Origin: Rhodopseudomonas sp. AAP120
GTDB taxonomy: Bacteria; Pseudomonadota; Alphaproteobacteria; Rhizobiales; Xanthobacteraceae
NCBI RefSeq assembly: GCF_001295845.1
Contig: NZ_LJIC01000170.1
Coordinates: forward strand, 1-64,000
Reading direction: 5' to 3'
Length of the DNA: 64,000 nucleotides
In this document: positions 16,998 to 38,535 of the stretch, piece after piece
How positions within the stretch are numbered: the stretch's first letter is position 1
Layout of the letters: the number at the start of each line of letters is the position of its first letter
The notes under the pieces: generated by a model
The model's input: the letters and a program-made list of their open reading frames with translations, nothing else
Told to the model about the DNA's origin: nothing
Database searches by the model: none
Made by a program: the position numbers and the translations under genes

Positions 16998-18074
16998 ATG
17001 AGCAACCACACTGGTCATCGGCTGAGCCGGCGCTCGCTTCTGCTCGGCGCCGGAGCCGGCGCGCTGATTGCGCCGCTCGGCGTGCAGGCCTTTCCCGGCC
17101 GCCCGGCACCGTTCGATTTCGAGAATGCCCCGATCTGCCGAACGGCGGGCGAGGCGACGCCGCTGACCGGCGCGCCGCGCAAGCTCAAGCTGTCGTGGAA
17201 CGCCAACGCGGTGTGCTCGGTGCAGGTCCCGGTCGCGGTCGACTACGACTTCTTCAAGAAACAGAACCTCGACGTCGAACTGGTGAACTTCTCCGGCTCG
17301 ACTGATCAGTTGCTCGAAGCCATCGCCACCGGCAAGAGCGACGCCGGTGTCGGCATGGCGCTGCGCTGGCTGAAGCCGCTGGAGCAGGGTTTCGACGTCA
17401 AGATCGTCGCCGGCACGCATGGCGGCTGCCTGCGCGCGATCGCGCCGACCAAGTCGGACATCACGAAAGTCACCGACCTGAAAGGCAAGGTGGTGGCGAT
17501 CGACGACCAGGCCGGGCCGAGCAAGAACTTCTTCGCGATCCAGCTCGCCAAGGCCGGCGTCGACCCGAACAAGGATGTCGACTGGCGGCAGTATCCGGGC
17601 AATCTGGTGCGGCTGGCGGTCGAGAAGGGCGAGGCGCAGGCGGCGCTGTCGTCGGATCCGCTTGCCTACGCCTTCCTCAAGGACGGTGAATTCCGCGAGA
17701 TCGGCTCCAATCTCGACGGCATTTATCGCAATGTCAGCTGCTGCATCGTCGGCCTGCGCGGTTCGCTGCTGCGCGACGATCCGCAGGTCGCGCGGGCGTT
17801 GACTCAGGCGCTGCTCGACGCGGCTGAGTTCTCGTCGAGGAATCCGGAAAAGGCGGCGAAGTCGTTCCTGCCTTACGCGCCGAAGCTCGTCACCGAAGAC
17901 GATCTGCGCGAGCTGATCAAGTATCACACCCACGATCATCATCCGACCGGCGCCCATCTGAAGCAGGAGCTGAAGCTCTACGCCGATGATCTCAAGGTGG
18001 TATCGGTGATCAAGCCCTCGACCGATACGACGAAGTTCGCCGACAAGATTTACGCCGACGTATTCAAGGTGTGA
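16998..18074 (+). CDS. ABC transporter substrate-binding protein, SsuA/NrtA-like
   Basis: 358 residues, with a Tat-type signal (LSRRSLLLGAGAGA). The mature part shows the NMT1/SsuA fold: KLKLSWNANAVCSVQVPVAVDYDFFKKQNLDVELVNFSGS, then a DLKGKVVAIDDQAG lid motif. Odd features are several Cys (NAVCSV, GGCLRA, NVSCCIV) and a His-rich turn near 310 (HTHDHHPTGAH), which could bind metal. First gene of an operon with a permease, an ATPase, a cysteine-dioxygenase-like protein and a rhodanese, so a sulfur-containing ligand is likely but not shown. Confidence 0.85.
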   Translation: MSNHTGHRLSRRSLLLGAGAGALIAPLGVQAFPGRPAPFDFENAPICRTAGEATPLTGAPRKLKLSWNANAVCSVQVPVAVDYDFFKKQNLDVELVNFSGSTDQLLEAIATGKSDAGVGMALRWLKPLEQGFDVKIVAGTHGGCLRAIAPTKSDITKVTDLKGKVVAIDDQAGPSKNFFAIQLAKAGVDPNKDVDWRQYPGNLVRLAVEKGEAQAALSSDPLAYAFLKDGEFREIGSNLDGIYRNVSCCIVGLRGSLLRDDPQVARALTQALLDAAEFSSRNPEKAAKSFLPYAPKLVTEDDLRELIKYHTHDHHPTGAHLKQELKLYADDLKVVSVIKPSTDTTKFADKIYADVFKV

Positions 18075-18081
18075 GGGACCG

Positions 18082-19092
18082 ATGTCCGAAGCGCTCGATC
18101 TTCCTGTAGGCGCCTCGTCGGCCGGCAGCCTGTCATTGCTCCGCGCCGTACGCGGTCATTTTGCCGGGTTCGCCGCGAGCCTCGCCTGGCTCGCTTTCGG
18201 CCTGTCCTGCCTGTGGCGGGAGGATGTCGGCGACTGGTCGCGCACCCAAGAGGTGGCGATCGCCGCGCTGGTGATCGCGGGCGCTGTGGCGCTGGCCGCC
18301 GTGGCGGCATTCTGGTCGCGGCGCGTCGCCGACACGGTGCAGAGGCGGGCGCCATGGCTGGTGCTGCTCGGCGTCTGGTTTGCGGTCTGGGAAGTTCTGA
18401 CCGCGAAGCTCGGCCTGCTGCCGTTGCCGTTCTTCCCGCCGCCGCAGGCGATCGTCGAGGTCTATACCGACGATCTGCCAAAACTGTTCGACAGTGTATT
18501 CGCCTCGGTCAAGCTGCAGCTCGGCGGCTATGCGATCGGCGCGTTCGCGGGCTTCGTCACCGGGGTGTTGATCGGCTGGTCGCGGGCGATCGGCTACTGG
18601 GTGCACCCGGTGCTGCGCTTCATCGGGCCACTGCCGGCGACGGCGTGGCTGCCGATTGCGTTTTTCGCGTTTCCGACCAGCTGGAGCGCTTCGACCTTCC
18701 TGATCGCGCTCGCCACCGGCTTTCCGGTGACGGTGCTGACCTGGTCAGGCGTCGCCAGCGTCAGCAACGCGTATTACGACGTGGCGCGCACGCTCGGCGC
18801 CAAGCCGTCGTTCCTGGTGTTCAAGGTGGCGATTCCGGCCGCGCTGCCGCACGTCTTCGTCGGCCTGTTCATGGGCCTCGGCGCGTCGTTCGCTGTGCTG
18901 GTGGTTGCCGAGATGATGGGCGTCAAGTCGGGGCTCGGCTGGTACCTGCAATGGGCGCAGGGCTGGGCGGCCTACGCCAACATGTATGCGGCGCTGCTGG
19001 TGATGTCGCTGCTGTGCTCCGGCGCGATCACGGCGCTGTTCAAACTGCGCGATCGTCTGCTCAGCTGGCAAAAGGGTGTGGTGAAATGGTGA
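18082..19092 (+). CDS. ABC transporter permease, SsuC/TauC-like
   Basis: 336 residues with several membrane segments. The conserved BPD permease loop appears as VSNAYYDVARTLGAKPSFLVFKVAIPAALPHVFVGL, near residues 225-260, which contacts the ATPase. The N-terminal 90 residues carry two extra hydrophobic stretches compared with SsuC, making it longer than the usual 260. It starts 7 bases after the binding-protein gene and overlaps the ATPase start by 7 bases. Confidence 0.88.
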   Translation: MSEALDLPVGASSAGSLSLLRAVRGHFAGFAASLAWLAFGLSCLWREDVGDWSRTQEVAIAALVIAGAVALAAVAAFWSRRVADTVQRRAPWLVLLGVWFAVWEVLTAKLGLLPLPFFPPPQAIVEVYTDDLPKLFDSVFASVKLQLGGYAIGAFAGFVTGVLIGWSRAIGYWVHPVLRFIGPLPATAWLPIAFFAFPTSWSASTFLIALATGFPVTVLTWSGVASVSNAYYDVARTLGAKPSFLVFKVAIPAALPHVFVGLFMGLGASFAVLVVAEMMGVKSGLGWYLQWAQGWAAYANMYAALLVMSLLCSGAITALFKLRDRLLSWQKGVVKW

Positions 19093-22344: not shown

Positions 22345-23313
22345 TCAGGATCCGCGCGGCACCCAGATCTTCACCGCGTCGGTCTTCACCTTTGTCGGGA
22401 TCAGCCCCTCGGTCAAGAAAGCGTCGGCGATCTTCTGCTGCTCGGCAAGGCCATCCGGCGTGACGCGACCGACCGCGTAGGAACGGTGGCTGTTAGCCTC
22501 CTCGACGATCGGCGCCTCGATGCTCCACAGGCCGGCCAGCAGCGTTGCTGCCTCTTTCGGGTTGGCTTTGACCCAACGTCCGGTCTGCGCAAGCTGGTCG
22601 TAGATGACGTTCAACACGTCGCTGCGTTTCTCCGCATAGGAGGCCGACGCGAGATAATAGCGCTTGTAGCTGGCGAGGCCATCCGACCCGTCGGCCAGGA
22701 TCCGGGCGCCGGTCTGGTGCCGGGCGCTGGTGTAGAACGGGTCCCACGCCACCCAGGCGTCGACATTGTTGCTGACGAAGGCGGCACGGCCGTCGGCAGG
22801 GGCCAGATACGCCGGCGTGATGTCCTTGAAGGTGAGGCCGGCCTTGGCGAGCGCAGCCAGCAGCAGATAGTGGCTGCCGGCACCCTTGGTCACCGCGACG
22901 CGCTTGCCCTTGAGATCGGGCAGCGTCTTGATCGACGACGACTGCGCGACCAGGATGGCTTGTGCGGCCGGCGAGGCTGCTTCCTCGGCCACATAGGCGA
23001 GCTGCGCGCCGGCGGCCTGCGCGAAGATCGGCACGGTGTCGGCAACGTCTGCGCCGAAATCGATGCTGCCGACATTGATCGCTTCCAGCAATGGCAGACC
23101 GCTGGTGAACTCATGCCAGGTGATTTTCACGCCGAGCGGAGCGAGGGCCTTCTCCAGTTCGCCGTTCGATTTCAGCACCGCGACCAGCGTCGAGGAGCGC
23201 TGATAGCCGATCCGGACCGTATCGGTTGGCGACTGCGCCCGGCCGGGCAGCGTGGAGAGTGCGATTGCGGAGGCGGCGATCGTCGACACCAGAAATGAAC
23301 GTCGGGAAGTCAT
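22345..23313 (-). CDS. Aliphatic-sulfonate-type binding protein (paralogue 1)
   Basis: 322 residues from the ATG at 23311-23313 (MTSRRSFLVS), which gives a clean signal peptide ending near GRAQS; the longer frame to 23604 is a shadow. SsuA-family motifs: VRIGYQRSSTLVAVLKSNGELEKAL, then TWHEFTSGLPLLEAINVGSIDFG and LKGKRVAVTKGAGSHYLLLAAL. It shares the same plan with the paralogues at 24325 and 28888. No permease adjoins it, so it probably feeds the SsuBC pair at 26-27.7 kb. Confidence 0.88.
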   Translation of the reverse strand: MTSRRSFLVSTIAASAIALSTLPGRAQSPTDTVRIGYQRSSTLVAVLKSNGELEKALAPLGVKITWHEFTSGLPLLEAINVGSIDFGADVADTVPIFAQAAGAQLAYVAEEAASPAAQAILVAQSSSIKTLPDLKGKRVAVTKGAGSHYLLLAALAKAGLTFKDITPAYLAPADGRAAFVSNNVDAWVAWDPFYTSARHQTGARILADGSDGLASYKRYYLASASYAEKRSDVLNVIYDQLAQTGRWVKANPKEAATLLAGLWSIEAPIVEEANSHRSYAVGRVTPDGLAEQQKIADAFLTEGLIPTKVKTDAVKIWVPRGS

Positions 23314-23518
23314 CACGGATCCTTGCCAGGAGAAGCGGCATCGGGCGGCCGAACCGCATGGGGGAGTTACAGAATGTCCGAGGAATGAGTGCTGTTGGCA
23401 ATTCTGCACTTCTGCGAAATGCAGATCGCTTGTACTTCGCGCCCACCTGCTTTGAGAAACTCGTTCTTCACGGCCGAATAACGAGCGTAGGTCGGCAGTT
23501 CGCCTGCGCGACGCGCGC

Positions 23519-24043
23519 TCAGGCGGAAACGCCTGCGGGAGAGCGGGCGTGCTCGGCCGAAGCGATCGGCAGCGCAGTGACCGACTTGATCTTCTCCATG
23601 GCAAAGCGCGATGTGACGTTCTTCAACGCGGCGGCGCCGATCAGCGTTCGGTAGAACTGATCGAAGCTCTTCATGTCCGGAACGACGACGCGAAGCACAT
23701 AGTCGAAATCGCAGGCGAGCCGATACATGTCGACGATCTGCGGCATCGCCTTCAATGTGGCGGCGAACGAGGTCTGCCATTCCTTGGAATGATCGCCGCT
23801 TTCGATGAACACGAACACCGACAGGCCCAGTCCGATCTTGTCCTGATCGACCAGCGCAACGCGCCCGGTGATCACACCTTCCATCTGCAGACGCTGGATA
23901 CGTTTCCAGCAGGGCGTCGACGACAGGCCGACCTGGTTGGCAACGTCCGCGACCGACAGCGTGGCGTCCTCCTGCAGCAGCCGCAGGATCTTGAAGTCGA
24001 CTCGGTCGAGCGCGCGGGATGTTTCAGGGGGAGCTGAGTTCAT
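23519..24043 (-). CDS. Lrp/AsnC-family transcriptional regulator
   Basis: 174 residues. The helix-turn-helix spans LDRVDFKILRLLQEDATLSVADVANQVGLSSTPCWKRIQRLQMEGVI, and the RAM effector domain follows (VFVFIESGDHSKEW, YRLACDFDYVLRVVVPDMKSFDQFYR). Lrp-type proteins sense amino acids. Position between two sulfonate-type binding-protein genes on the same strand suggests it controls them, perhaps in response to a sulfur amino acid; that link is inference. Confidence 0.92.
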   Translation of the reverse strand: MNSAPPETSRALDRVDFKILRLLQEDATLSVADVANQVGLSSTPCWKRIQRLQMEGVITGRVALVDQDKIGLGLSVFVFIESGDHSKEWQTSFAATLKAMPQIVDMYRLACDFDYVLRVVVPDMKSFDQFYRTLIGAAALKNVTSRFAMEKIKSVTALPIASAEHARSPAGVSA

Positions 24044-24324: not shown

Positions 24325-25278
24325 TCAGGACGCCGGCGACCACTTCCAGACGATGTCGCGGACATTGATCGGCTTCGGGATCAGCCCGAGCTTGTGGAAG
24401 CGATCGGCGGTCTGCTGCTGCTCGGCAAGAACCTTGTCGGTCACCGGCGTCACCTCGAACACCGAGCGGGCCACGAAAGTCGTCACGACGGCAGGATCGA
24501 CGCCGGTCGCCGTCGCTAGCGACCTGGTGATCTCGTCGTGATGAGCGTTGGCCCACTGCGCCTCCTTGGCGAAGGTCTGGTTCAGCAACGCGACGACGTC
24601 GCCATGTGCGTTGGTGAACTCACGATTGGCGAGGAAGAAGCCAATCGACTCGTGGGCGTCGCCGGCAAAGCTCAGCACGCGGGCGCCGCTCTTCTCGGCG
24701 AGCGCGAGATAAGGGTCCCAGATCGCCCACGCATCGACCGTGCCGCCGGCAAAAGCCGCAGTGCCGTCGGCCGGCGGCAGATACACTGCGGTGACGTCGG
24801 TGAATTGCAGACCGGCTTTTTCCAGGATCGCGACCGCGGTGTTGTGCGCGCTCGATCCCTTCGGAATGGCGAGGCGCTTGCCTTTGAGGTCGGCGACCGA
24901 CTTGATCGGCGAGTTGGCCGGCACCACGATGCCCTCGTTCTTGCCGGAGCCGGGCAGGGCGGCGACATAGAGCAGGTTGGCCGTCGCCGCCTGCGCGAAG
25001 ATCGGCGGTGTATCGCCGGTGTAGCCGAAATCGATGTTGCCGGTGTTGAGCGCCTCGAGCAGCGGCGGGCCGAAGGCGAACTCGACCCACTTCACGGTGA
25101 GGCCCTTGTCTTTCAGCGCGGCCTCGAGCGAGCCACGCTCCTTCACGGCCGGCTGGATGCCGGCTTTTTGGAAGCCGATACGCACTTCCTTCAATTCGGC
25201 CGCCGAGGCGGCGCCGAGAGAGGATGCCGCCAGGGCGGCGAAAGCAAGGGCGAACAGTGATCTGCGCGAAGTCTTCAT
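24325..25278 (-). CDS. ssuA: Aliphatic-sulfonate-type binding protein (paralogue 2)
   Basis: 317 residues with a Sec-type signal (SLFALAFAALAASSLGAASAAE). The SsuA fold is clear: VRIGFQKAGIQPAVKERGSLEAAL, VEFAFGPPLLEALNTGNIDFGYTGDTPP, then LKGKRLAIPKGSSAHN and VDAWAIWDPYL. The TGDTPP and IWDPYL motifs are those of true SsuA. It lies downstream of the flavin reductase gene across a 164-base gap, on the same strand as ssuDCB. Confidence 0.9.
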   Translation of the reverse strand: MKTSRRSLFALAFAALAASSLGAASAAELKEVRIGFQKAGIQPAVKERGSLEAALKDKGLTVKWVEFAFGPPLLEALNTGNIDFGYTGDTPPIFAQAATANLLYVAALPGSGKNEGIVVPANSPIKSVADLKGKRLAIPKGSSAHNTAVAILEKAGLQFTDVTAVYLPPADGTAAFAGGTVDAWAIWDPYLALAEKSGARVLSFAGDAHESIGFFLANREFTNAHGDVVALLNQTFAKEAQWANAHHDEITRSLATATGVDPAVVTTFVARSVFEVTPVTDKVLAEQQQTADRFHKLGLIPKPINVRDIVWKWSPAS

Positions 25279-25442: not shown

Positions 25443-26012
25443 CTAACCGTGCTTGGCGCTGGGCACGCTGACTTCGGCGAGGCGCACGAGATCCTCGTCG
25501 CGATCGATTGCGACGTAGCTGCCCTGCCAATAGGCCAGCGACGCCTTGCGCGGCAGCGTCGCGGTGTGAACGACGCGGCCGATCAGGATCGCATGGGTGT
25601 GGCGCTCGATCAGTTCATCGAGTTCGCATTCGATGCTGGCGAGCGCGCCGGACAGCACCGGCGCGCCGGAGATCCCGGTACTCCACGCGCCGACGCCGAA
25701 CCGAGCCGCGCCCTTGAAGCCGCCTTTGCCGGCGAAGCGTTCGCCGATCTCGATCTGATCCGCCGCCAGGATGTTGACTGCGAATGTCCGGCTTTCCGCA
25801 ATTTGCGGGCCGGCCGAGGAACTGCGGTTCAGACACACGATCAGTGCCGGCGGCGATGCCGACAGCGACGTGACGGCCGTGGCGGTCATGCCGACGCGGC
25901 CGCTGCCGGTGCCGGCGGTGATGATGCTGACCCCGCTGGCGAGTTGCCGCATCGCATGGGCGAAATCCGCCGGCGAGGCCGAGCGTAGACAGTCGTCGAT
26001 GGCAACATTCAT
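25443..26012 (-). CDS. Flavin reductase (FMN-binding split barrel)
   Basis: 189 residues from the ATG at 26010-26012; a TTG at 26033 would overlap ssuB. Domain features: FAHAMRQLASGVSIITAG, GMTATAVTSLSASPPALIVCLNRSSS, FAVNILAADQ and RHTHAILIGRV. These belong to the HpaC/SsuE-like split-barrel reductases that supply FMNH2 to two-component monooxygenases. Encoded 10 bases after ssuB, so its natural partner is SsuD in this operon; it is not related by fold to E. coli SsuE. Confidence 0.9.
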   Translation of the reverse strand: MNVAIDDCLRSASPADFAHAMRQLASGVSIITAGTGSGRVGMTATAVTSLSASPPALIVCLNRSSSAGPQIAESRTFAVNILAADQIEIGERFAGKGGFKGAARFGVGAWSTGISGAPVLSGALASIECELDELIERHTHAILIGRVVHTATLPRKASLAYWQGSYVAIDRDEDLVRLAEVSVPSAKHG

Positions 26013-26022
26013 GGCGGCAGCC

Positions 26023-26865
26023 TCACAGCTCAAACGCGCCCTCCGAGCCCTTCAGAAGGTCGCGCAGGATCTCGCCTTCCAGCGCGGCGAGTTCGGCCGA
26101 GCCGCGCTGGCGCGGGCGTGGCAGGTCGATCAAGAGATCCTTGGCGATGCGGCCGTCCTCGATCACCAGCACGCGATCGGCGAGCGCTACCGCTTCGGCA
26201 ACGTCGTGCGTCACCAGGATGGCGGTGAAGCCCTGGTCCTGCCAGACCTGTTCGAGCAGACGCTGCATGGCGATGCGCGTCAGCGCGTCGAGCGCGCCCA
26301 GCGGCTCGTCGAAGGCGAGCACGCGCGGCCGGCTCACCAGCGCCCGGGCCAGCGCAACGCGCTGCTTTTGGCCGCCCGACAGCACCGCCGGCCATTGTCC
26401 CCGCTTGTCGTCGAGTCCGACTTCGATCAGCGCCGCATCGGCGCGTGCGCGGGCATCCGGCGAATTGCGTTCGGCGCCGAGTCCGACTTCGACATTGGCG
26501 AGCACGCGCGCCCACGGCAGCAGCCGCGGCTCCTGAAACATGACGCGGACATCGCCCGGCAGCTTGTCCTCGCCAAAGCTGATATGACCGGCGGTCGGCG
26601 TCTCCAACCCGGCGATCAGGCGTAGCAGCGTGCTCTTGCCGCACCCGCTGCGCCCGACGATGGTGACGAACTGACCGGCCGGGATCTGCAGATCGATGCC
26701 GCGTAGCACGTCGTTGTCGCCGAACGATTTACGCAGGCCACGGATGTCGAGCGGCAGCGCCGGCGTCGCGGCACGGGCCGGCGCTGCTTCTTTGACTCGG
26801 GGAGGGTCGGCTTCGCCGAGGCGTTGCCGCTGGCTGGCGGCGAGAAACTGCAGCGCTTCCATCAT
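26023..26865 (-). CDS. ssuB: Sulfonate ABC transporter ATPase SsuB
   Basis: 280 residues. Walker [10 protein letters not shown] near 72, Q-loop [11 protein letters not shown], signature [15 protein letters not shown], Walker [13 protein letters not shown] and VTHDVAEA. The N-terminal 40 residues are a Pro/Ala-rich extension typical of rhizobial SsuB. Starts 7 bases after ssuC and runs into the flavin reductase gene. Confidence 0.94.
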
Positions 26866-26872
26866 CGGCCCC

Positions 26873-27679
26873 TCACGACTTCTGGAACGCCGGGTGCCAC
26901 GACAACGTCAGCCGTTCGAGCAGCCGGGACGCGCTGTCGGCGAGCTTGCCGAGCAGGGCGTAGATCAGAATGGAGAGCACGACGACATCGATCAGCATGA
27001 ACTCGCGCGCCTGCATCGCCATGTAGCCGAGGCCCGATGAGGCCGCGATGGTCTCGGCCACGATCAGCGTCAACCACATGATGCCGAGTGCGAAGCGGAC
27101 GCCGACGAACACCGAGGGCAGCGCTCCGGGGAAGATCACGCGGCGGAACAGCTCGAGGTTGCTCATCCCGTAGATCCGGCCCATTTCGATCAGCTGTGGA
27201 TCGACGGTGCGGATGCCGTGCAGTGTATTGAGATAGATCGGGAAGAACACGCCGAGGGCGACCAGGAACAGCTTGGCCTGCTCGTCGATGCCGAACCACA
27301 GGATCACCAACGGGATCAGCGCCAGATGCGGTACGTTACGCACCATCTGCAGCGTGGTGTCGGAGAGTTTCGAGCTCAGGCTGGACAGGCCGTTGGCGAG
27401 CCCGAAGGCGAAGCCGATGGTGCCGCCGATCGCAAAGCCCACCGAAGCGCGCCAGAAGCTGACCCAGATGTTGCGCACAAGTTCGCCGGATTGCAGCAGC
27501 CTCCAGCCGGCGACGACGACGTCGCTCGGCGCCGGCAGCACGCGCGCCGACACCAGGCCGAAGCTGCAGGCCGCCTGCCAGACGACGATAATCAGCAGCG
27601 GCACGATCCATTGGATCAGACCGTCGGCGCGCGGCAAACGCCAGCTGTGCGGACGGGCGAGGGTCTCGACGAGGCTCAT
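26873..27679 (-). CDS. ssuC: Sulfonate ABC transporter permease SsuC
   Basis: 268 residues with about six membrane segments. The ATPase-contact loop reads [40 protein letters not shown]. The text [23 protein letters not shown] is characteristic of SsuC/TauC. It overlaps ssuD by 4 bases (ATGA) and is followed by ssuB. Confidence 0.94.
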
Positions 27680-28845
27680 GGCTTGGCCACCTGCTTGGCA
27701 TTGGGCAGATGTTCGTTGGCGATGGTTTCGCCGAATGGTCCAGAGTTGACGCGGAGCGGCGTGACGTTGCCGGCATGCTGCGGCTTGACCAGCGGGAAAA
27801 CCAGTTCGGCGAACCGATAAGCCTCTTCGAGATGCGGGTAGCCGGACAGGATGAACGTGTCGATGCCGACGTCCTGATACTCCTTGATCCGCGCTGCGAC
27901 GGTCTGCGGATCGCCAACCAGCGCCGTGCCGGCACCGCCGCGCACCAGGCCGACGCCGGCCCAGAGGTTTGGGCTGATTTCGAGCTTGTCGCGCCGGCCG
28001 CCGTGCAACTGCCCCATGCGCTGCTGGCCGACCGAATCCATCCGCGCGAACACCTTTTGCGCGGCGGCTATCGTGTCATCCGTGACGTAGCGGATCAGAT
28101 CGTCGGCGGCGGCCCAGGCCGCTTCATTGGTTTCGCGCACGATGACGTGCAGCCGGATGCCGAACGACAGCTTGCGGCCCCGCGGTTCGGCGACGGCCCG
28201 GACCCGGCTGACCTTTTCGGCGACAGCTTCCGGCGGCTCGCCCCAGGTGAGATATTTGTCGACGGTGTCGGCGGCGACGTCGATGCCGGCGTCCGACGAT
28301 CCGCCGAAATACAGCGGCGGACGCGGGCTCTGCAACGGCGGGAACAGCAGCCGGCCGTCCTCGATGGTGATGTGCTTGCCGCTGACGTTCACCGTCTTGC
28401 CGGCGAGCAGATCCGAATAGACGTTGAGGAATTCGCGGGTCACCTCGTAGCGCTCGTCGTGCGACAGGAAGATGCCGTCGCCTTTGTTTTCGACCGGATC
28501 GCCGCCGGTGACGACGTTGATCAGTAGCCGGCCGCCGGTGACGCGGTCGAGCGTCGCGGTCATCCGGGCGGCGACGCTCGGCGACTGCAGGCCGGGGCGA
28601 ACGGCGACCAGATAGCGCAGCCGCTCGGTCCACGGCGCGACCGCCGAGGCGACGACCCAGGAATCCTCGCAGCTCCGCCCCGTCGGCAGCAGCACGCCGA
28701 AATAGCCGAGCTGGTCGGCCGCCTGGGCGATCTGGCGCAGATACGCGAAGTTGACGTCACGCCCTCCGGTCGACGTGCCGAGATAATGGCCGTCACCATG
28801 GGTGGGCAGGAACCAGAGGAAATTTGACGCGTGAGCTGAGCTCAT
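27676..28845 (-). CDS. ssuD: FMNH2-dependent alkanesulfonate monooxygenase
   Basis: 389 residues. The enzyme releases sulfite from alkanesulfonates using FMNH2 and O2. Family features: [15 protein letters not shown], a conserved Cys in GRSCEDSW near 59 (equivalent of SsuD Cys54), [29 protein letters not shown] and [22 protein letters not shown]. It needs oxygen, so it serves aerobic sulfur scavenging, in contrast with the presumably oxygen-sensitive nitrogenase-like operon next door. It starts 42 bases after the preceding binding-protein gene. Confidence 0.96.
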
Positions 28846-28887: not shown

Positions 28888-29835
28888 TTACGCCTGCGGC
28901 GGCTTCCACACCGCGTCGCGAACCACGATCGGCCGCGGGATCAGCCCCAACTGGTGGAACCGGTCGGCGACGCCCTGCTGGGTGGCGATGATGTCGTCGG
29001 TCACAGGTCCGACCGCGAAGGACGAGCGGTTGGCCGCAGCCGTCTGGATGTCGAGAGGGATGCCGGTGACGGCGGCGAGCGATTGCGCGACCTCATTGCG
29101 ATGCGTTTCCGCCCATTGCGCCGTCGCGCTGGTGACGGTCACGATCTGCTTGAGGATCGCGCCGTTGCGCTGCGCGAAGTCACGATTGGCGATGTAGAAC
29201 GAATTTGTGCGGCCGACGTCTGACGCGTTGACCAGGATGCGGCCGTTCTGTTTCAGCTCGCCGATCGCGAAGTACGGGTCCCAGATCGACCATGCATCGA
29301 TGCTGCCTTGCGCGAACGCCGGGCCCGCGTCAGGCGGCGTCAAATACACCGGGACAATGTCGTCGTAGCTCAGTCCCGCCTTCTGCAGCACCAGCAGAAC
29401 GACGTTGTGGGCGCTCGATCCCTTGGTGAAGCCGATGCGTTTTCCCCTGAGATCGGCGAGGCTGCGGATCGACGAATCCTTCGGGACCAGGATGCCCTGG
29501 CCGTTGGTGATGGGCTGGCCAGCTGCATAGACGACCGCCGCGCCGGCGGCTTGGGCGAAGATCGGCGGTGAGTCGCCGACGGCGCCGTAGTGGATGCTGC
29601 CGACGTTCATCGCTTCCAGCATCGGCGGGCCGGATGAGAATTCGAGCCATTTGATGCCGATGTTTTGCGATGCAAAATGATCTTCAAGGGTTCGGCGCTG
29701 GCGTGCGATCACCAGCACGCCGTTCTTCTGATAGCCGATGCGGATCTCTGTTAGCGGCTCGGCGGCTGCGCGCTCTGATAGCAGCGGAGCCAGCGACGCG
29801 GCCGCCGATAGCTTGAGAAAGTCGCGCCGCTGCAT
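28888..29835 (-). CDS. Aliphatic-sulfonate-type binding protein (paralogue 3)
   Basis: 315 residues with a signal (MQRRDFLKLSAAASLAPLLS, partly Tat-like). SsuA-like: IRIGYQKNGVLVIARQRRTLEDHF, LEFSSGPPMLEAMNVGSIHYGAVGDSPP, then LRGKRIGFTKGSSAHN and IDAWSIWDPYFAI. First gene of the ssuD-ssuC-ssuB-flavin reductase operon. Three receptors sharing one permease pair would widen the range of sulfonates that can be imported. Confidence 0.9.
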   Translation of the reverse strand: MQRRDFLKLSAAASLAPLLSERAAAEPLTEIRIGYQKNGVLVIARQRRTLEDHFASQNIGIKWLEFSSGPPMLEAMNVGSIHYGAVGDSPPIFAQAAGAAVVYAAGQPITNGQGILVPKDSSIRSLADLRGKRIGFTKGSSAHNVVLLVLQKAGLSYDDIVPVYLTPPDAGPAFAQGSIDAWSIWDPYFAIGELKQNGRILVNASDVGRTNSFYIANRDFAQRNGAILKQIVTVTSATAQWAETHRNEVAQSLAAVTGIPLDIQTAAANRSSFAVGPVTDDIIATQQGVADRFHQLGLIPRPIVVRDAVWKPPQA

Positions 29836-30281: not shown

Positions 30282-31499
30282 ATGGCGACGGTGAGCGAAT
30301 TGAAGGACGGGCTCTGGCGAGAGCTGGCGCTGAAGGCGGAACTCGGCATCAACGGGGTTGCGATCAGCGGCGAAGCGCTTGACGTCGTGCAGCCCGGGGT
30401 GCGGGCGCAGGAACAGGTCCACTGCTTGTTCGAGATGGATTTCGAGACTCACACGGTCGAGCTGCCGTCGCATTTCTATCTGCCTCTCGGGCTCAGCGTA
30501 CCGTTCCGTTGGAATCCGAAATCGACCTATCGGGTCGATCTGATCGGCGATCGCACGGTGCTGATCGACGGTGCCGAGGTGATTGCAGAGGTCAAGTTCC
30601 GCGAGCGGCCTGCGTTCTACGGCGCCAAGACGTCCGACGGCATCGAGATGAGTCAGATCGGGGCGCATTACGCCGACCGGCATTTGTTCATCGTCTACAG
30701 CAACGAGTGTTCGTACAAGGAAAAGGGCGAAGACTGTCTGTTCTGCAATATCAACTACACCAAGGACGTGTATGGTGAGAAAGGCGGCGTGTTCTGGAAG
30801 AACGCACGGCAGATCGGCGAGACCGCGGCGCGCGCATACTCGGATGGCGCGATCGACCATCTCACCGTGAGCGGCGGCGTCATCCCGGAGCGGCGCGAAC
30901 TCGAATACTATCTCGATGTCGCCGAGGCGATCCAACAGCATACCGGGCGCGAGGACTTCAACGGCACCGCCACGATTGCCGCGCCGCTCGACCTGCGCAA
31001 TCTCGATCGCTTCAAGGAAGCCGGTTATCGGACCACGGCGATGAACATCGAGATCTGGGATAAAGGCATCTACGAGGCGATCTGTCCCGGCAAGGCGCGT
31101 GGCGGTGGCGGCTGGGAGCACTGGGTCAAGGCGCTCGAATACGCCGTGACGGTGTTCGGCCATGGCCGGGTGCGCTCCAATATCGTCGCGGGCATCGAGC
31201 CGAAACGCAGCACGCTGGCGGGGCTGGAATATCTCGCGTCGAAGGGCGTGGTCGGCACGTTCGCGGTGTGGTGCCCGAACCCTGGATCCGAGCTCGAAGG
31301 CCACCGCCCGCCGGTGCCAGGCTGGTATCTCGACCTCGCACACAGACTGGTGGCGATCTGGCGCAAGAACGGCATTACCTATCAGCACGTGTTCGACAGC
31401 AATGCATCGTCGGATACGCTGCAGCACGATATCTACCGGATCGAGGACGAAACGCTGCCGATCTTCGCAACGGCCAAGCAACTCGAGCCCGCCGAATAG
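30282..31499 (+). CDS. Radical SAM protein of a nitrogenase-like operon
   Basis: 405 residues from ATG at 30282; a GTG at 30246 would add 12. An N-terminal region of about 130 residues without recognised motifs precedes a radical SAM core. The cluster cysteines appear to be Cys143, Cys152 and Cys155 (NECSYKEKGEDCLFCN), a CX8CX2C spacing instead of the usual CX3CX2C. LTVSGGVIPERRE near 194-206 is the likely SAM-contacting glycine motif, and NGTATIAAPLDL and MNIEIWDKGIYEAICPGKARGGG follow as in the barrel. It does not resemble NifB, which has CX3CX2C and further cluster Cys. It probably matures or modifies a partner encoded by the next three genes, or acts on their substrate. Confidence 0.75.
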   Translation: MATVSELKDGLWRELALKAELGINGVAISGEALDVVQPGVRAQEQVHCLFEMDFETHTVELPSHFYLPLGLSVPFRWNPKSTYRVDLIGDRTVLIDGAEVIAEVKFRERPAFYGAKTSDGIEMSQIGAHYADRHLFIVYSNECSYKEKGEDCLFCNINYTKDVYGEKGGVFWKNARQIGETAARAYSDGAIDHLTVSGGVIPERRELEYYLDVAEAIQQHTGREDFNGTATIAAPLDLRNLDRFKEAGYRTTAMNIEIWDKGIYEAICPGKARGGGGWEHWVKALEYAVTVFGHGRVRSNIVAGIEPKRSTLAGLEYLASKGVVGTFAVWCPNPGSELEGHRPPVPGWYLDLAHRLVAIWRKNGITYQHVFDSNASSDTLQHDIYRIEDETLPIFATAKQLEPAE

Positions 31500-31536
31500 T
31501 TCATCCGATCGCTCATCTTGATTCCACGGAGGCCGC

Positions 31537-32404
31537 GTGAGCAACGCAAAGCCCAGGCACATCGCCATCTACGGCAAGGGTGGCATCGGCAAGTCGACCA
31601 CGACATCGAACATCTCGGCGGCGCTCGCCGAAGCGGGGCATCGCGTCGTCCAGATCGGCTGCGATCCGAAAAGCGACTCGACCACGATCCTGCGCGGCGG
31701 CGCGGATCTGCCGACCGTGCTCGACAGCCTGCGCGACAGTGGCCGGCCGACCATCGCTGACGTTTCGGCGACCGGCTTCGGCGGTGTGCTGTGCATCGAG
31801 GCCGGCGGTCCTGTACCGGGTGTCGGCTGCGCGGGACGCGGCATCAACGCGGCGGTCGATCTGCTGCACGAACTCCGGCTGTTCGAGGAGTTCAAGCCGG
31901 ACTACGTCCTCTACGATGTGCTCGGCGACGTGGTGTGCGGCGGCTTCGCGGTGCCGATCCGCAACGGCATCGCCGAGTCGGCCTTCGTGGTGACCTCGTC
32001 GGACTTCATGGCGATCTTTGCGGCCAACAATCTGTTCAAGGCGATCGGCAAATACGCGCCGTCCGGCGGGGCCCGGCTGGGCGGCGTGATCGCCAACAGC
32101 ATCCAGACGCCTTATGCGACGGCGTTGATCGACGATTTCGCCGCACGCACTGGGACGGGCGTGGTCGGCTATGTGCCGCGGTCGCACGGTCGCGCAGAGT
32201 GAACTCTACGGTCAGACGGTGATCGAGGCTGCGCCGGCGTCGGAGCAGGCCGAGATCTATCGCAAGCTGGCGCGGCACATCGCCGGCGAGCATCCGGCGT
32301 CGATTCCCAGGCCGCTGAACGGACCGGCCCTGAAGGACTGGGCGAGACAATGGGGCGACAGGGTGTTCGGCACAGCCGAGCGGTCGCTCGCCGAGGTGGT
32401 GTGA
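31537..32404 (+). pseudogene. NifH-like iron protein, frameshifted near the 3' end
   Basis: GTG start at 31537 behind GGAGG. The first frame gives a clean nitrogenase-reductase-like ATPase: P-loop GKGGIGKST at 13-21, IGCDPKSDST at 40-49, and 4Fe-4S ligands Cys98 (GVGCAGRG) and Cys134 (VVCGGFAVP). Arg101 sits where nitrogenase reductase can be ADP-ribosylated. After GYVPRS at residue 216 the frame runs into TGA at 32200. The +1 frame continues the family sequence (TVAQSELYGQTVIEA) from 32186 to a stop at 32402-32404. Joined, it would be about 288 residues, the normal NifH length. The cause may be a real mutation, a sequencing error or recoding; no classical slippery site is obvious. Electron donor to the component-1-like pair downstream is the expected role. 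Confidence 0.85.
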
Positions 32405-32405
32405 G

Positions 32406-33764
32406 ATGAACAAGCCGCTGCAACCGCCGACTCGCGAGCGGCGGCTGAATGGTATCAGCGCCTATCTCGGCGACATTGCCGCGCTGATCGCCGAACTCGA
32501 ATCCGGTCCGTCGGTCCAACGCATCCGCACGTTCTCCCAGGTGGCTGCCGACGACGTCTCCGCGGCGCTCGGCGTACTCGCCGAGATCGATGGCCTCGGG
32601 GTGGTGGTGCATGGCGCGCGCGGTTGCGCCGGTGCGCTTGCGCATGGCGGGGCCGGGCGGCCGTGGGCGGTCACCAATCTCGACCAGCGCGACACCATTC
32701 TGGGCGCCGACGGCGTGCTGGCGCGCACGCTTCGCCGGCTATACGAGCAGCACCGGCCTTGGGCGATCGTCGTGGTGGCCACCCCCGTGGTGGCGATCAA
32801 CAACGACGATATCCAGGCGGTCGCCGCCGAGCTTGGCGACGAACTCGGCGTGCCGGTGATCGAGCTGCGTACCGATGGTTTCCGCTCGCGGATCGCGGCG
32901 ACCGGCTACGATATCGCCGGTGCAGCGCTGGCCGCGCTGGTGCAACCGCAGCACGGCCGCCGCCACGATGTGATCAACCTGCTTGCCTTTGAGCAGGGAC
33001 CGGGCTTGAGGGCGATCACGCAGCAACTCGCTGCGCTCGGGCTCGAGGTCAACGTGCTGCCGGCTGGCGCTGGTTCCGACGCATTTGCGAGAGCCGCGCA
33101 GGCCGTGCTCAGCGTCGCGGTGTTTCAGGACGAGGCCGACGTCTTGCGGCGCGAGCTCGACCGGCTGCAACGCGTGCCGTTCCTGCATCTGCCGCCACCG
33201 ATCGGAGTCGCTGGCGCCCGCCAATTCGTCGAAGCCGTCGCCGAAGCCACCGAGCGGCCTCCGCCGGCGAAGGATGAGAGGGCGTGCGGCAGCGAATTGC
33301 TCGGCGATCGACGCGTCGTTGTCGCGCTGCCGCCCTCCCAGGCATTCGCGGTCGCGGGCCTGATCGAGCAGTTCGGCGGTCGTCTCGCCGGTCTCAGCGT
33401 CGATTGGATCGACAGCCTCCACCTCGATGGACTCAAGGCGCTGAGCGCCACGGCGACACTGGCGTTGCGTATCGGCGCAGGGCAACCGTTCGAACTGATC
33501 AACTGGCTCGACAAGCTGAAGCCCGATCTGCTGATCGGTACACCGGCCGCAGCAGCGACCGCGACCCGTGCGGCAATCGCTGCGGTCGCAATCCAGGGTG
33601 ACGAACTGCTGGGCGCCGCCGGCGAAGCGCGATTGGTGGCACGCATTGCTCGGGCACTCGACGCGCAACGGCGTGGCTTCGGCGGCTTTGCCGCTGGGAC
33701 CGACTACAATCCCGGTTGGATGAAGCGCAGCCCGGACTGGTACATCAAGCGCGAGGTGAGATGA
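32406..33764 (+). CDS. Nitrogenase component-1-like subunit (first; NifN/NifK-like)
   Basis: 452 residues starting 1 base after the iron-protein gene. Homology to component 1 is visible in VVVHGARGCAG (Cys74), the TNLDQRDTILGADGVLARTL segment, and VVVATPVVAINNDDIQ, where nitrogenase has CPxGLIGDDI; here Thr126 replaces that Cys. The earlier P-cluster Cys is also absent, leaving Cys74 as the only interface cysteine, as in NifN. The middle segment PFLHLPPPIGVAGARQF resembles the PLGVxATDxFL text of NifN/NifK. The only other Cys, 294, is in a linker. No FeMo-cofactor ligand is seen. Predicted to share one Fe-S cluster with the next protein. Confidence 0.8.
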   Translation: MNKPLQPPTRERRLNGISAYLGDIAALIAELESGPSVQRIRTFSQVAADDVSAALGVLAEIDGLGVVVHGARGCAGALAHGGAGRPWAVTNLDQRDTILGADGVLARTLRRLYEQHRPWAIVVVATPVVAINNDDIQAVAAELGDELGVPVIELRTDGFRSRIAATGYDIAGAALAALVQPQHGRRHDVINLLAFEQGPGLRAITQQLAALGLEVNVLPAGAGSDAFARAAQAVLSVAVFQDEADVLRRELDRLQRVPFLHLPPPIGVAGARQFVEAVAEATERPPPAKDERACGSELLGDRRVVVALPPSQAFAVAGLIEQFGGRLAGLSVDWIDSLHLDGLKALSATATLALRIGAGQPFELINWLDKLKPDLLIGTPAAAATATRAAIAAVAIQGDELLGAAGEARLVARIARALDAQRRGFGGFAAGTDYNPGWMKRSPDWYIKREVR

Positions 33765-35107
33765 TGGCGGCGCATCTGACGCGTCCCCGTGTGGGCTGTG
33801 CGCTGCATGGAGCGCTATACGCGGCGTCGGCGATCGACGGCGTGACGCCGCTGGTGCATGCGACGCCGGGCTGCGGCGTTCAGGCCGCGTTGTGGCGCGG
33901 CGTCGGCTGCGGGCTCGGCAGCGGGTGGCCGACCTCGAACCTGTCCGAGAAGCACGTCGTGTTCGGCGGCGCCTCTCGGCTGCGCGAGCAGATCAAGAAC
34001 ACCCGCAGCGTGGTCGCCGGCGAACTGACGGTGGTGCTCACCGGCTGTCCGGCCGAGATGATCGGGGACGATGTCGACGCGATGGCTCAGGAAGCGCGCG
34101 ACGCCGGGGGCGACGTTGTTGATCTCGCGACCGCGGGGTTTCGCGGCTCCGCCTATCGCGGCTTCGCGGCCTTCCTCCAAGCCGTGCTGGAGAAATCGGT
34201 CCCCGCCGCGCCGCGACGTGCTGGACTGGTGAACATTTTCGGGCCGTTGCCGCATCAGGATGGGTCGTGGCTCGCCGAGATCGAGGAACTGTCCCGCCTG
34301 ATCGCTGGCATCGGCCTGACTCCCAATCCGATCTTTGGCCCGTTCGGCGGCCTCGGCAGTCTGCGGGCAGCGGCGCAGGCCGAACTGAGCGTGACGGTCT
34401 CGCCGTGGACCGCCGCCGCGGTTCGCACGCTCGACGATCGCTTTGGCATCCCGTGGATCGAAAGTGCAGGGTTGCCGGTCGGTGCCGCGGCGACGGCCGC
34501 CTGGCTGGAGACGATCGTCGCGGCCGCAGTCGATATCGACGAGCCGGTTGCCACCGCTTTCATTGATCACGAGCGGCGCCGCGAAGCCTATTATCTCGAC
34601 CGCGTGCTCGAGCCTCTGTATCGGCAAGGCGGCCCGCGCGCCTTTGCGCTGGCGCTACCAAGTCTGCACGCGGCTGGCCTCGCGCGATTTCTGGTTCAGA
34701 CGCTGGGCTGGTCACCGGCGGCGATCGTCATCACCGACAATCCCGACAACGACAGCCGGGTGGCGTTACAGAACGGCCTCACCGCCGTGCATTACACTGA
34801 GGACGACGACGAGATCGCCGGCCTGATCGGCGCCAGCGGCGCGGACATCGTGTTCGGCAGTGCACTTGAACAGATAGCCGCGAACCGGCTTGAAGCGCCG
34901 CTCATCGAATGCGCGGCTCCGACGAGCCGCCTCGGCCTGACAACCGGCTTCGGCGGCTTCCGTGGCGGCCTGGCAATGCTCGAGGCGATCCTCAGCGCGG
35001 CCGACACCAATGCTGCCTCCGTTGCCGATCTGGGCAAGCCTGCCGCGGGCACGTCTGTCCAGCCGCGGTGGCCGCAACGCATCAGATTGTCCGAAACCGC
35101 ATCGTAA
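33761..35107 (+). CDS. Nitrogenase component-1-like subunit (second; NifE/BchN-like)
   Basis: 448 residues from ATG at 33761, overlapping the previous gene by 4 bases. Three interface cysteines are present: Cys13 (VGCALHGA), Cys38 (ATPGCGVQ) and Cys96 (LTGCPAEMIGDD). Their spacing (25 and 58) is close to the three-Cys set of NifE and of BchN. WPTSNLSEKHVVFGGASRLREQI and RFGIPWIES are also component-1 hallmarks. The cofactor Cys of NifD (in the NLVxCYRS segment) aligns with SVTVSPWT, which has none, and the C-terminal His motif is replaced by APTSRLGLTTGFGGFRG. So a [4Fe-4S] cluster with three Cys here and one from the partner is likely. Overlaps the convergent sensor kinase gene by 26 bases. 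Confidence 0.82.
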   Translation: MMAAHLTRPRVGCALHGALYAASAIDGVTPLVHATPGCGVQAALWRGVGCGLGSGWPTSNLSEKHVVFGGASRLREQIKNTRSVVAGELTVVLTGCPAEMIGDDVDAMAQEARDAGGDVVDLATAGFRGSAYRGFAAFLQAVLEKSVPAAPRRAGLVNIFGPLPHQDGSWLAEIEELSRLIAGIGLTPNPIFGPFGGLGSLRAAAQAELSVTVSPWTAAAVRTLDDRFGIPWIESAGLPVGAAATAAWLETIVAAAVDIDEPVATAFIDHERRREAYYLDRVLEPLYRQGGPRAFALALPSLHAAGLARFLVQTLGWSPAAIVITDNPDNDSRVALQNGLTAVHYTEDDDEIAGLIGASGADIVFGSALEQIAANRLEAPLIECAAPTSRLGLTTGFGGFRGGLAMLEAILSAADTNAASVADLGKPAAGTSVQPRWPQRIRLSETAS

Positions 35108-36425
35108 AGAGGGCGCCCGTACGCGGTGCATCGGTAATCTCGATGCTGCCGCCGTGCTCCTCCATCACCGTTTTAACGATCGATAATCCCAGGCCGGCAC
35201 CGTCACTCCGGGTCCGGTCGCCGCGCCAGAAGCGCTGGAAGATTGCCGCCCGGTCGACCGGCGGAATGCCGGGACCATAGTCGCGCACGCTGACCGAGCC
35301 GTCGCGCCCGACGTCGATGATCACCGTGGAAGCTACGGCGGTGTGGCGGATCGCATTCTCCACCAAGTTTCGGAGTGCTCGCCGCACCATCTCCGCATGG
35401 CCTCGAATGTGCGCCGGCCGATCTCCGCCCCGTAGCTCGATATCCTTCCCGGCCGCGAGCGCCAGCGGCGCCATCTGCTCGATGATCTCGACGGCGATCT
35501 GCGATAGATCGACGGTCTCGGCAGGATCGATCCGCATCGCGTTGAGTTCGGCGACGTCGAGCAGCTGTGCCACGATGCGGCTCATGGTCTGGATATTGCG
35601 ATGCAAATCCTGGTTGGCGCCGACCGGATCGAGTGTTTCGATCCGCGCGTTGAGTATCGCCAGCGGTGTTCTCAGCTCGTGCGCGGCATCCGCGGTGAAG
35701 CGGCGCTGCTCGCGAAAGCCCTGTTCGAGACGGTCGAACGCCAGGTTGACGGCCTGAACCAGCGGCCGCACTTCGCTCGGAATACCGGACGTCGGGAGGC
35801 GGATGTCTGTGCGCGCGGGGCCGATGGCGGCGGCGCGTTCGGATGCTTCGACCAGCGGCCGCATCGCGCGACGGAAGATCACGACATCGAACGCCAGCAG
35901 CAGCAACAGGATCGGCAGCGTAATCCAGCCGACCGTGTGGAAGAAATCGGCGACGATATCGTCGGTGATCACGTCACGATGCGACAGATCTTCCGCGACC
36001 TGAATTCGCAGCTCGTGGCCGCTGATGTTGCGCGTGATGCTGCCGCCCGCCATGACATCGCGACCGCCATGGATCCCGGGCGCCGGCTCCTCGTCGTTGA
36101 GCGGCAACAGCGGGGTGGTGGCGTCGCTCGAGCTGAACAGCACTCTGCCGGCCGCGTCCACCACCGCATAGGCGTAGCGTCCATAGGCTGCGGAATACAG
36201 ATCGCGCAGGTCCTGCGGCAGGGTGAGGGTCAGGCGTCCGTCCGGATCGGTCGTAAGGTGCTGGGCGATGACATCGGCCTGGCGCCGCATCGTCTCCGCG
36301 TGCAGCCGGTCGATCTCGCGCCCAAGCATCCAGAACAGGATCAGCGGCAGTACCACTGCGGTGATCGTCAGCGCAGCGACGTGCAGCAGCAGGATGCGAA
36401 CAGCAAGCGAATCCCGACGCAACAC
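35082..36425 (-). CDS. Two-component sensor histidine kinase
   Basis: 447 residues, GTG start directly after the response-regulator stop. Two membrane segments (about 10-33 and 163-184) flank a periplasmic domain of about 130 residues. A HAMP-like linker follows, then the H-box FTADAAHELRTPL with His249 as phosphoacceptor, N-box NLVENAIRH, and G-boxes DYGPGIPP and GAGLGLSIVK. It resembles QseC/TctE-type kinases that work with OmpR-like regulators. The paired efflux system upstream suggests sensing of a metal or toxic compound in the periplasm. Confidence 0.92.
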   Translation of the reverse strand: MLRRDSLAVRILLLHVAALTITAVVLPLILFWMLGREIDRLHAETMRRQADVIAQHLTTDPDGRLTLTLPQDLRDLYSAAYGRYAYAVVDAAGRVLFSSSDATTPLLPLNDEEPAPGIHGGRDVMAGGSITRNISGHELRIQVAEDLSHRDVITDDIVADFFHTVGWITLPILLLLLAFDVVIFRRAMRPLVEASERAAAIGPARTDIRLPTSGIPSEVRPLVQAVNLAFDRLEQGFREQRRFTADAAHELRTPLAILNARIETLDPVGANQDLHRNIQTMSRIVAQLLDVAELNAMRIDPAETVDLSQIAVEIIEQMAPLALAAGKDIELRGGDRPAHIRGHAEMVRRALRNLVENAIRHTAVASTVIIDVGRDGSVSVRDYGPGIPPVDRAAIFQRFWRGDRTRSDGAGLGLSIVKTVMEEHGGSIEITDAPRTGALFTMRFRTI

Positions 36426-37100
36426 CTACCGGATCTCCGACAACAGATACCCGACGCCGCGAATGTTGCGAACTTCGACCGTCGCTGCAAATGTCTCGAG
36501 CTGCTTGCGTAGCCGGGACACATAGACCTCGACCGCGTTCGAGGCGATCTCGCCGGTGAGGCCGAACATATGATCCTCGATGGCCTTCTTCGACACCACG
36601 CGACCCTGCCGTCGCAGCAGGATTTCGAGCACGCTGAGTTCGCGCGCCGATAATAGCCGGGGCTGTCCGCCGACGAATACCTCACGGCTTTCGGTATCGT
36701 AAGTCAGGTTCGCCAAGCTCAGCGAACGACCGAGCAACTGCCCGGGGCGGCGCAGCAGCGCCTGAATCCGCGCGGCGAGTTCTTCCATCGCGAATGGCTT
36801 CACCAGATAGTCGTCCGCGCCGTTCTTCAATCCGGCGACCCGATCTTCGACGGCACTTCGTGCGGTCAGGATCAGAACGGGCAGCGGCGCGTGTTTCGCG
36901 CGCAACTCGCGCAGCAGTATCATGCCGTCACCATCGGGGAGGCCGAGGTCGAGGATCATCGCCGGATAGCCCGCGCCCGACAACGCGATCCGCGCGTCCT
37001 CGACGCCCTCGACGACGTCGAGCTGATAGCCTGATGCCGCGAGACCTCGCGCAATCAGGCCAGCCAGTTCGGTATTATCCTCGACGAGCAGAAGACGCAT
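36426..37100 (-). CDS. OmpR-family response regulator
   Basis: 224 residues from the ATG at 37098-37100 (MRLLLVEDN); a longer frame to 37166 is not family-like. Phosphoacceptor Asp51 (LDLGLPDGDG), Thr in LILTARS, Lys in DDYLVKPFA. The C-terminal winged helix has LSARELSVLEILLRRQGRVVSKKAIEDHMFG and NAVEVYVSRLRKQL. It is divergent from the adaptor gene of the efflux system, with 187 bases between them where its operator probably lies. Confidence 0.94.
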   Translation of the reverse strand: MRLLLVEDNTELAGLIARGLAASGYQLDVVEGVEDARIALSGAGYPAMILDLGLPDGDGMILLRELRAKHAPLPVLILTARSAVEDRVAGLKNGADDYLVKPFAMEELAARIQALLRRPGQLLGRSLSLANLTYDTESREVFVGGQPRLLSARELSVLEILLRRQGRVVSKKAIEDHMFGLTGEIASNAVEVYVSRLRKQLETFAATVEVRNIRGVGYLLSEIR

Positions 37101-37287
37101 CGGATGTACGGGGCCCTGTGGCACTTGACGTCGTATCCTATCAGGCGCCCGTCCGTAAACTAACACAAGTCGCGCGATGTCGGAGAGGGGGCGCAGCTGT
37201 AAGGTCCATGTAAGGTCAGCTTGCTAGTGCAGCTCACGCCCTCCTCGCCGATTGTCGGCCCGGACCGGCTGGGGAGCGGAGCGGCAG

Positions 37288-38505: not shown

Positions 38506-38535
38506 AGCGTCCTCGAACCCCTCACGGCGGTCCTT

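Follow-up and report, generated by a model that had tools for sequence, protein, structure and literature searches.

We analyzed a 64,000-nucleotide stretch of the genome of Rhodopseudomonas sp. AAP120 (contig NZ_LJIC01000170.1, positions 1 to 64,000 of the forward strand), hereafter the window, which is contig C80 of a 6.16-Mb draft assembly in 228 contigs. Four co-directional genes at 30282-35107, in the order B-H-D-K, encode a radical SAM (S-adenosylmethionine) enzyme, a NifH-like protein, and two proteins resembling nitrogenase component 1 (PF00148). They are separated by 37 bases and 1 base, and the last two overlap by 4 bases, a tight arrangement that a first-pass annotation, made from the sequence alone, had proposed and that the coordinates and family matches bear out. 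That annotation also described the set as standing without nif biosynthesis genes, which holds for the 24 window genes scanned by family, among which there were none, but not for the genome, where nifHDKEN and anfHDK are present outside the window.

Assignment to the isethionate reductase family

The same four-gene set was described in 2024 as IsrBHDK, the isethionate reductase of Rhodobacter capsulatus (rcc02237-02234; PMC11423573, drawn on here in excerpt). According to that source, mutants of B, H, or DK do not grow anaerobically on isethionate, islAB rescues growth of the DK mutant, and R. sphaeroides gains growth from isrBHDK together with ssuCAB. Given this description, the idea of a new kind of system was rejected, and the window operon itself is a further, possibly broken, member of a system already in print. 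We regard it as probably an isrBHDK operon of the isethionate reductase type, in which an imported sulfonate would undergo C-S cleavage by IsrDK and IsrB jointly, with IsrB as the substrate part. Family, clade, cysteine pattern, neighbors, and a frameshift in H were computed here; we infer the substrate in this species, the cluster content, and the role of IsrB.

The cysteine pattern follows the published one, in which IsrD has a single cluster cysteine (Cys74), the other two sites being occupied by Arg and Pro/Ser, and IsrK and IsrH contribute three and two cluster cysteines, respectively (PMC11423573). Here, C74 of D, at the same residue number, is found in 28/28 rows of the clade in our trees, and the third P-cluster-type site (position 127) is Pro in 27 of the 28 and Ser in the other; the window D has no Cys before residue 74 and two in all (74 and 294). 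K has C12, C37, and C95 in 28/28 clade rows, and H has C98 and C134 in 29/29. B belongs to the variant radical SAM family NF045502 and is not NifB, and its CX8CX2C motif is present in 59 of 60 aligned B-family proteins, the remaining one being a fragment.

Phylogenies of the component 1 subunits alongside Mar (methylthio-alkane reductase) and the nitrogenases, which the first-pass annotation had proposed, place D and K outside Mar, Nif, and Anf (28 Isr-type rows for D and for K, 29 for H). In the D tree, the window sequence groups first with Rhodopseudomonas and Rhodovulum and next with Chlorobiaceae, Geobacteraceae, Clostridium, and Paenibacillus, in a clade with support of 100/99; the K tree gives the same grouping at 95/90, and the H tree agrees inside the Isr group and is weak at the base. 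The suggestion of a distinct branch was thus correct as to a position outside MarBHDK but not as to novelty, the branch having already been described as Isr. The trees exclude loci L055, L056, L063, L067, L069, L071, L075, and L076 as well as the truncated D of L030, and long BchN and BchY rows, which sat inside the group in a quick D tree, were omitted from the careful one.

Compared with IsrBHDK of R. capsulatus, the window set shares the B-H-D-K order, a radical SAM B that is not NifB, the tested cysteine pattern, and a nearby ATP-binding cassette (ABC) sulfonate transporter. It differs in facing ssuD, a gene that R. capsulatus lacks according to PMC11423573, in its frameshifted H, and in that xsc lies on another contig rather than adjacent. 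Some observations weigh against the assignment: the trees were built without the R. capsulatus type proteins, so that Isr membership rests on the published traits, and an intact set of B, H, D, and K is not present in the window because H is frameshifted. R. capsulatus Isr, sought in two surveys of the Rhodovulum family (149 and 394 genomes), gave no match besides Rhodovulum itself. A class-wide survey with a D profile matched one of 385 genomes, the window's own, with only the best four candidates per genome scored, so that misses are possible, and in a plasmid survey, B had no match and D two distant ones.

The reading of the operon as MarBHDK is very improbable. The predicted D fold is nearest that of the Mar complex (9fmg_A, template modeling [TM] score 0.83), and the best PDB sequence match of K is MarK (191 bits). 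The two systems are also alike in having nitrogenase-like HDK genes with a radical SAM gene and in their C-S chemistry. However, D and K fall outside the Mar clade, and the same genome carries a true Mar set on contig C13, whose D and K score 912 and 740 bits against the R. rubrum Mar structure. Mar has six P-cluster cysteines, an [Fe8S9C] cluster with one Cys and one His ligand, and a MarB with NifB motifs (PMC12552129, also in excerpt; PDB 9fmg and 9d9u), whereas the window set has four such cysteines, of which D holds one of three, lacks the large-cluster ligands, and has no NifB-like gene. The column of the Mar His ligand holds no His in 28/28 D clade rows; at the column of the cofactor Cys, the window D has Phe and Cys is absent in 22/28 rows, although the other six do hold a Cys there, a further point on the opposing side. 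Membership in MarBHDK was accordingly rejected on the D and K trees, the pattern of cysteines and ligands, and the non-NifB-like B. Four conserved cluster-type cysteines and neither Mar [Fe8S9C] ligand make it probable that IsrDK carries one [4Fe-4S] cluster.

Among other relatives, none of the curated cut-offs for NifD, NifK, and NifH (Nif/Vnf/Anf) was reached by the window proteins, although the score of the truncated H piece understates its match to the NifH model. The dark-operative protochlorophyllide oxidoreductase (DPOR, BchLNB) and chlorophyllide oxidoreductase (COR, BchXYZ) probably resemble Isr in having one [4Fe-4S] cluster, bound by four residues from two subunits, and in lacking a large cofactor (discussion of PMC11423573), but the window proteins fall below the NCBIfam cut-offs for these systems, both of which the genome holds elsewhere. 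PMC11423573 names the radical SAM enzyme BciD as the nearest Swiss-Prot relative of IsrB. BciD acts on a bacteriochlorophyll. AlphaFold models of B (9 rows) and D (12 rows) reached mean predicted local distance difference test (pLDDT) values of 79 and 83. The D model is predicted to lie nearest MarD and then DPOR. Fold searches with the B model gave only weak radical SAM matches, the best being AprD4 at TM 0.30, with low confidence around the motif, and we therefore place no mechanistic weight on it; a PDB sequence search with B found no match.

The window genome holds 16 component 1-type genes (contigs C154, C66, C83, C125, C13, and C80): NifDKEN, AnfDK, BchNB, BchYZ, MarDK, IsrDK, and a Mar-like DK pair that is 53-57% identical to MarDK and for which no separate NifH-like gene was found. 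Contig C13 carries, in addition to the Mar set, Xsc at 58.7 kb. In three of five congeners (L030, L031, and L032), Mar D and K adjoin the ssu operon about 6 kb from isr. Two Paenibacillus genomes (G450 and G455) each encode four further nitrogenase-like D proteins that score 218-291 bits against the Isr model.

Sulfonate neighborhood and state of the operon

The full divergent ssu operon reported by the first-pass annotation was found, with ssuA, ssuD, ssuC, ssuB, and a flavin reductase, as were the three sulfonate-type binding proteins that it had placed within 8 kb, namely three SsuA-type proteins between 22345 and 29835 (Table 1). On the other side, 3' of isrK (35082-41763), are genes for a two-component system and for metal efflux of the CusA/CzcA type, which are probably unrelated to isr.

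Table 1. Features of the isr operon and its sulfonate-related neighbors in the window.
Feature	Coordinates	Strand	Evidence
Weak SsuA-family protein and permease, further sulfonate-type ABC genes	16998..19092	+	Below-cut-off matches; ATPase near 19134 by tblastn
Third SsuA-type binding protein	22345..23604	-	TIGR01728, 200 bits, residues 130-408; start probably further in
Second SsuA-type binding protein	24325..25278	-	TIGR01728, 245 bits
Flavin reductase, probable SsuD partner	25443..26033	-	RutF/HpaC-family matches below cut-offs
ssuB-type ABC ATPase	26023..26865	-	Best match NF008420, 333 bits, below cut-off of 395
ssuC permease	26873..27679	-	NF008470, 352 bits (cut-off 347)
ssuD, FMNH2-dependent alkanesulfonate monooxygenase	27676..28845	-	TIGR03565, 633 bits (cut-off 518)
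ssuA, sulfonate-binding protein	28888..29835	-	TIGR01728, 236 bits, over cut-off; 446 bases from isrB, divergent
isrB-type radical SAM enzyme, CX8CX2C motif	30282..31499	+	NF045502 (variant_rSAM), 439 bits (cut-off 125); 86-95% to five congeners
isrH (NifH-like), N-terminal piece, early stop	31537..32202	+	PF00142, 270 bits, matched to profile position 211 of 271; C98 and C134 kept in 29/29 rows
isrH, C-terminal piece, different frame	32192..32404	+	PF00142, positions 216-265 of 271
isrD, component 1-like, single cluster-type Cys (C74)	32406..33764	+	PF00148, 145 bits; one further Cys (294)
isrK, component 1-like, Cys 12/37/95 counted from ATG at 33764	33761..35107	+	PF00148, 249 bits

We surveyed 37 loci (the window, five congeneric stretches, and 31 others, after three overlapping Rhodopseudomonas loci were dropped) and compared them with 20 control stretches drawn from some of the same genomes. 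Transporters were called sulfonate-type by tblastn similarity, and their substrates are thus predicted only. SsuC-type permeases occur in 28/37 loci, SsuB-type ATPases in 32/37, and SsuA-type binding proteins in 18 or 19/37 depending on the query set, and permeases are found near 17 of the 22 loci outside the genus (stretches of at least 17 kb) versus 2/20 controls (Fisher p 1.2e-5). SsuD is present in 6/37 loci, all from Rhodopseudomonas, and a general co-occurrence of isr with ssuD was therefore rejected. Together, the permease enrichment and the confinement of SsuD to one genus indicate that a sulfonate-type transporter is the general companion of isr and that ssuD is a local one. The sulfur link drawn in the first-pass annotation thus stands for the permeases in general and for the ssuD partner within the genus only. 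Its proposal that the operon carries out a reductive organosulfur reaction needing no oxygen, next to the oxygen-dependent SsuD, is supported, and the organosulfur inference matches the role published for Isr (PMC11423573).

Other neighbors recur as well. A short-chain dehydrogenase gene, often just 5' of H, is present in 11/37 loci and 2/20 controls, and in some Chlorobiaceae (L064, L066, and L052), BadFG and HGD-D genes, which represent an activator/reductase type driven by ATP, come after the Isr array at about 15-21 kb.

SsuD acts on a range of sulfonates, and the same machinery may in this species serve mainly another sulfonate, such as an alkanesulfonate or taurine, instead of isethionate. 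Consistent with this, isr stands opposite a full ssu set in six Rhodopseudomonas loci, where two or three SsuA-type proteins lie close by, and the neighboring transporters vary among relatives. We nevertheless consider it somewhat unlikely: the sole tested Isr member uses isethionate, its mutants still grow on taurine, for which R. capsulatus depends on Xsc (PMC11423573), and Xsc is also encoded in the window genome.

As sequenced, the operon is not intact. The H frame that opens at 31537 stops at 32202, and its last ~70 codons continue in another frame up to 32404. In aligned DNA, the window H is two bases shorter near 32,185 than all five congeneric copies (from genomes including Rhodopseudomonas sp. 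BR0M22, R. infernalis, and an R. palustris metagenome-assembled genome [MAG]), each of which is open in one frame. The complete nitrogenase-type machine of the first-pass annotation, which had missed this frameshift, is thus not encoded. The ratio of nonsynonymous to synonymous substitution rates (dN/dS) is approximately 0.04-0.24 for B, D, K, and both H pieces against four congeners, reflecting purifying selection, so the H frameshift appears to mark a gene lost very recently or else a sequence error in the draft.

A decaying pseudogene set without function in this strain is a serious but less probable reading. It would account for the frameshift in H and for the detection of B in just 6/16 same-genus genomes. 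It would also agree with the state of one congener, the R. palustris MAG (G001; L030:11859-13709), in which isrD is cut and reads into a histidine kinase domain and isrK was not found in the stretch. Opposing it are dN/dS values well below 1 for every part of the operon and the possibility of a two-base error in a draft assembly of 228 contigs.

IsrB arrays and linked SAM synthetases in relatives

We observed that several relatives of the operon combine one set of H, D, and K with many B genes. At least three IsrB genes surround one HDK in 7/37 loci. B and D were counted in 16 genomes picked from the surveyed loci, at over 600 bits for B and over 500 bits for D, giving 44 B and 17 D in total; in nine of the 44 B matches the matched stretch includes a stop, possibly the terminal one. 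The B:D ratio is 7:1, 7:1, 6:1, 6:2, 4:1, 4:1, 3:1, 2:1, and 2:1 in nine of these genomes and 1:1 in three. In a quick tree, B paralogs that share a genome pair with counterparts from other genomes, suggesting distinct functions that have been kept. Among 198 sampled genomes of the Chlorobiaceae phylum, B (E value of 1e-60 or better, best nine candidates per genome scored) was found in 11, and four of the nine with B over 600 bits have at least two.

A second association concerns the SAM synthetase gene metK. Matches were found in 14 of the 16 genomes, six of which have more than one, for 21 copies in all. When the best-scoring metK of each genome is set aside, a definition made after the result was seen, seven copies remain, and each of them has an IsrB-family gene within ~7 kb: the distance is at most 0.6 kb for four, 3.8 kb (across HDK) for two, and 7.0 kb for one. 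B, H, D, and K are absent from all 13 other metK regions that were read (best or only copies, spanning 10.8-20 kb; p 1.3e-5). Counted by genome, metK stands near B in 6/6 genomes with several metK copies versus 0/8 with one (p 3.3e-4), or 1/8 (p 4.7e-3) when G451, whose only metK is 11 kb away from four B genes, is also counted.

The linked metK copies do not form a single clade; that possibility was rejected because the tree requires four changes, at least three of them forced by starred branches, although it cannot tell gain from loss. The linked Clostridium copy is sister to the other copy of its own genome, one Paenibacillus copy is nested among Paenibacillus main copies, and the linked Geobacteraceae copies form a clade of their own. 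These linkages may reflect steady use of SAM by IsrB. PNP_UDP_1-type nucleosidases can clear 5'-deoxyadenosine, and genes of this family follow K or B in 4/37 loci and 0/20 controls; three of the four are accompanied by a purine permease and may function in salvage.

Division of labor between IsrB and IsrHDK

The respective roles of IsrB and HDK are posed as a question in PMC11423573. In the mechanism that we propose, the sulfonate would enter through the SsuABC-type ABC transporter, and IsrH, an ATP-driven Fe protein, would reduce IsrDK. IsrDK and IsrB would together cleave the C-S bond, releasing sulfite for assimilation without oxygen. In this step, IsrB might bind the sulfonate and consume one SAM per turnover, with its 5'-deoxyadenosyl radical triggering loss of sulfite, and IsrHDK might supply low-potential electrons. 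The many B genes per HDK and the metK genes beside B, seen across phyla, favor a split in which IsrB consumes SAM and sets substrate specificity and in which HDK is the reductive partner held in common. In its fullest form, which is possible but less likely than not, IsrB would be a substrate-specific, C-S-cleaving enzyme that uses SAM at every turnover, and one HDK would act as the shared, ATP-driven electron donor for several IsrB proteins.

Several features of the data tell against this assignment of roles. The 16 genomes were picked after the arrays had been seen, so the sample leans towards arrays, and four of them have a B:D ratio of 0:1, with weaker B relatives only. Among the Chlorobiaceae-phylum genomes, three of the four with multiple B had already been chosen, and without the four previously chosen genomes at least two B are found in only 1/5. 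In three of the seven metK cases, the neighbor is a weaker IsrB relative, and metK could instead stand beside sulfur genes for methionine supply and not for IsrB. The window genome itself has one B and a single metK that is not linked to the operon; the modular argument therefore comes from relatives whose D proteins are 34-41% identical.

Alternatively, IsrHDK itself may cleave the C-S bond reductively, with IsrB as a one-time activator or cofactor maturase, like NifB and supposedly MarB. This is the simplest analogy with Nif and Mar (PMC12552129), and in three of the 16 genomes each D is matched by one strong B; the need for all four genes in R. capsulatus (PMC11423573) is compatible with either role. 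We find it unlikely, since IsrB is not NifB-like and the window D lacks both large-cluster ligands, and since many B genes per HDK, paralogs kept across genomes, and metK next to B in several lineages would be unexpected of a maturase with low turnover.

If IsrB is indeed the substrate-specific enzyme, green sulfur bacteria, Geobacteraceae, and Clostridium would surround a single HDK with arrays of IsrB paralogs that act on different substrates, organosulfur or other, and SAM synthetases would have been recruited beside these arrays in several lineages. Such a division of labor was not met in a search of the open-licence literature, which covered mostly titles and the beginnings of abstracts. 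The window operon adds a member to a known system, and what merits further attention is the combination of one HDK, many B, and a linked SAM synthetase. The relatives provide organisms and gene sets in which the split of roles between IsrB and HDK is testable, and, if the proposal is right, a group of radical SAM enzymes would draw on one nitrogenase-like complex as their shared reductase.

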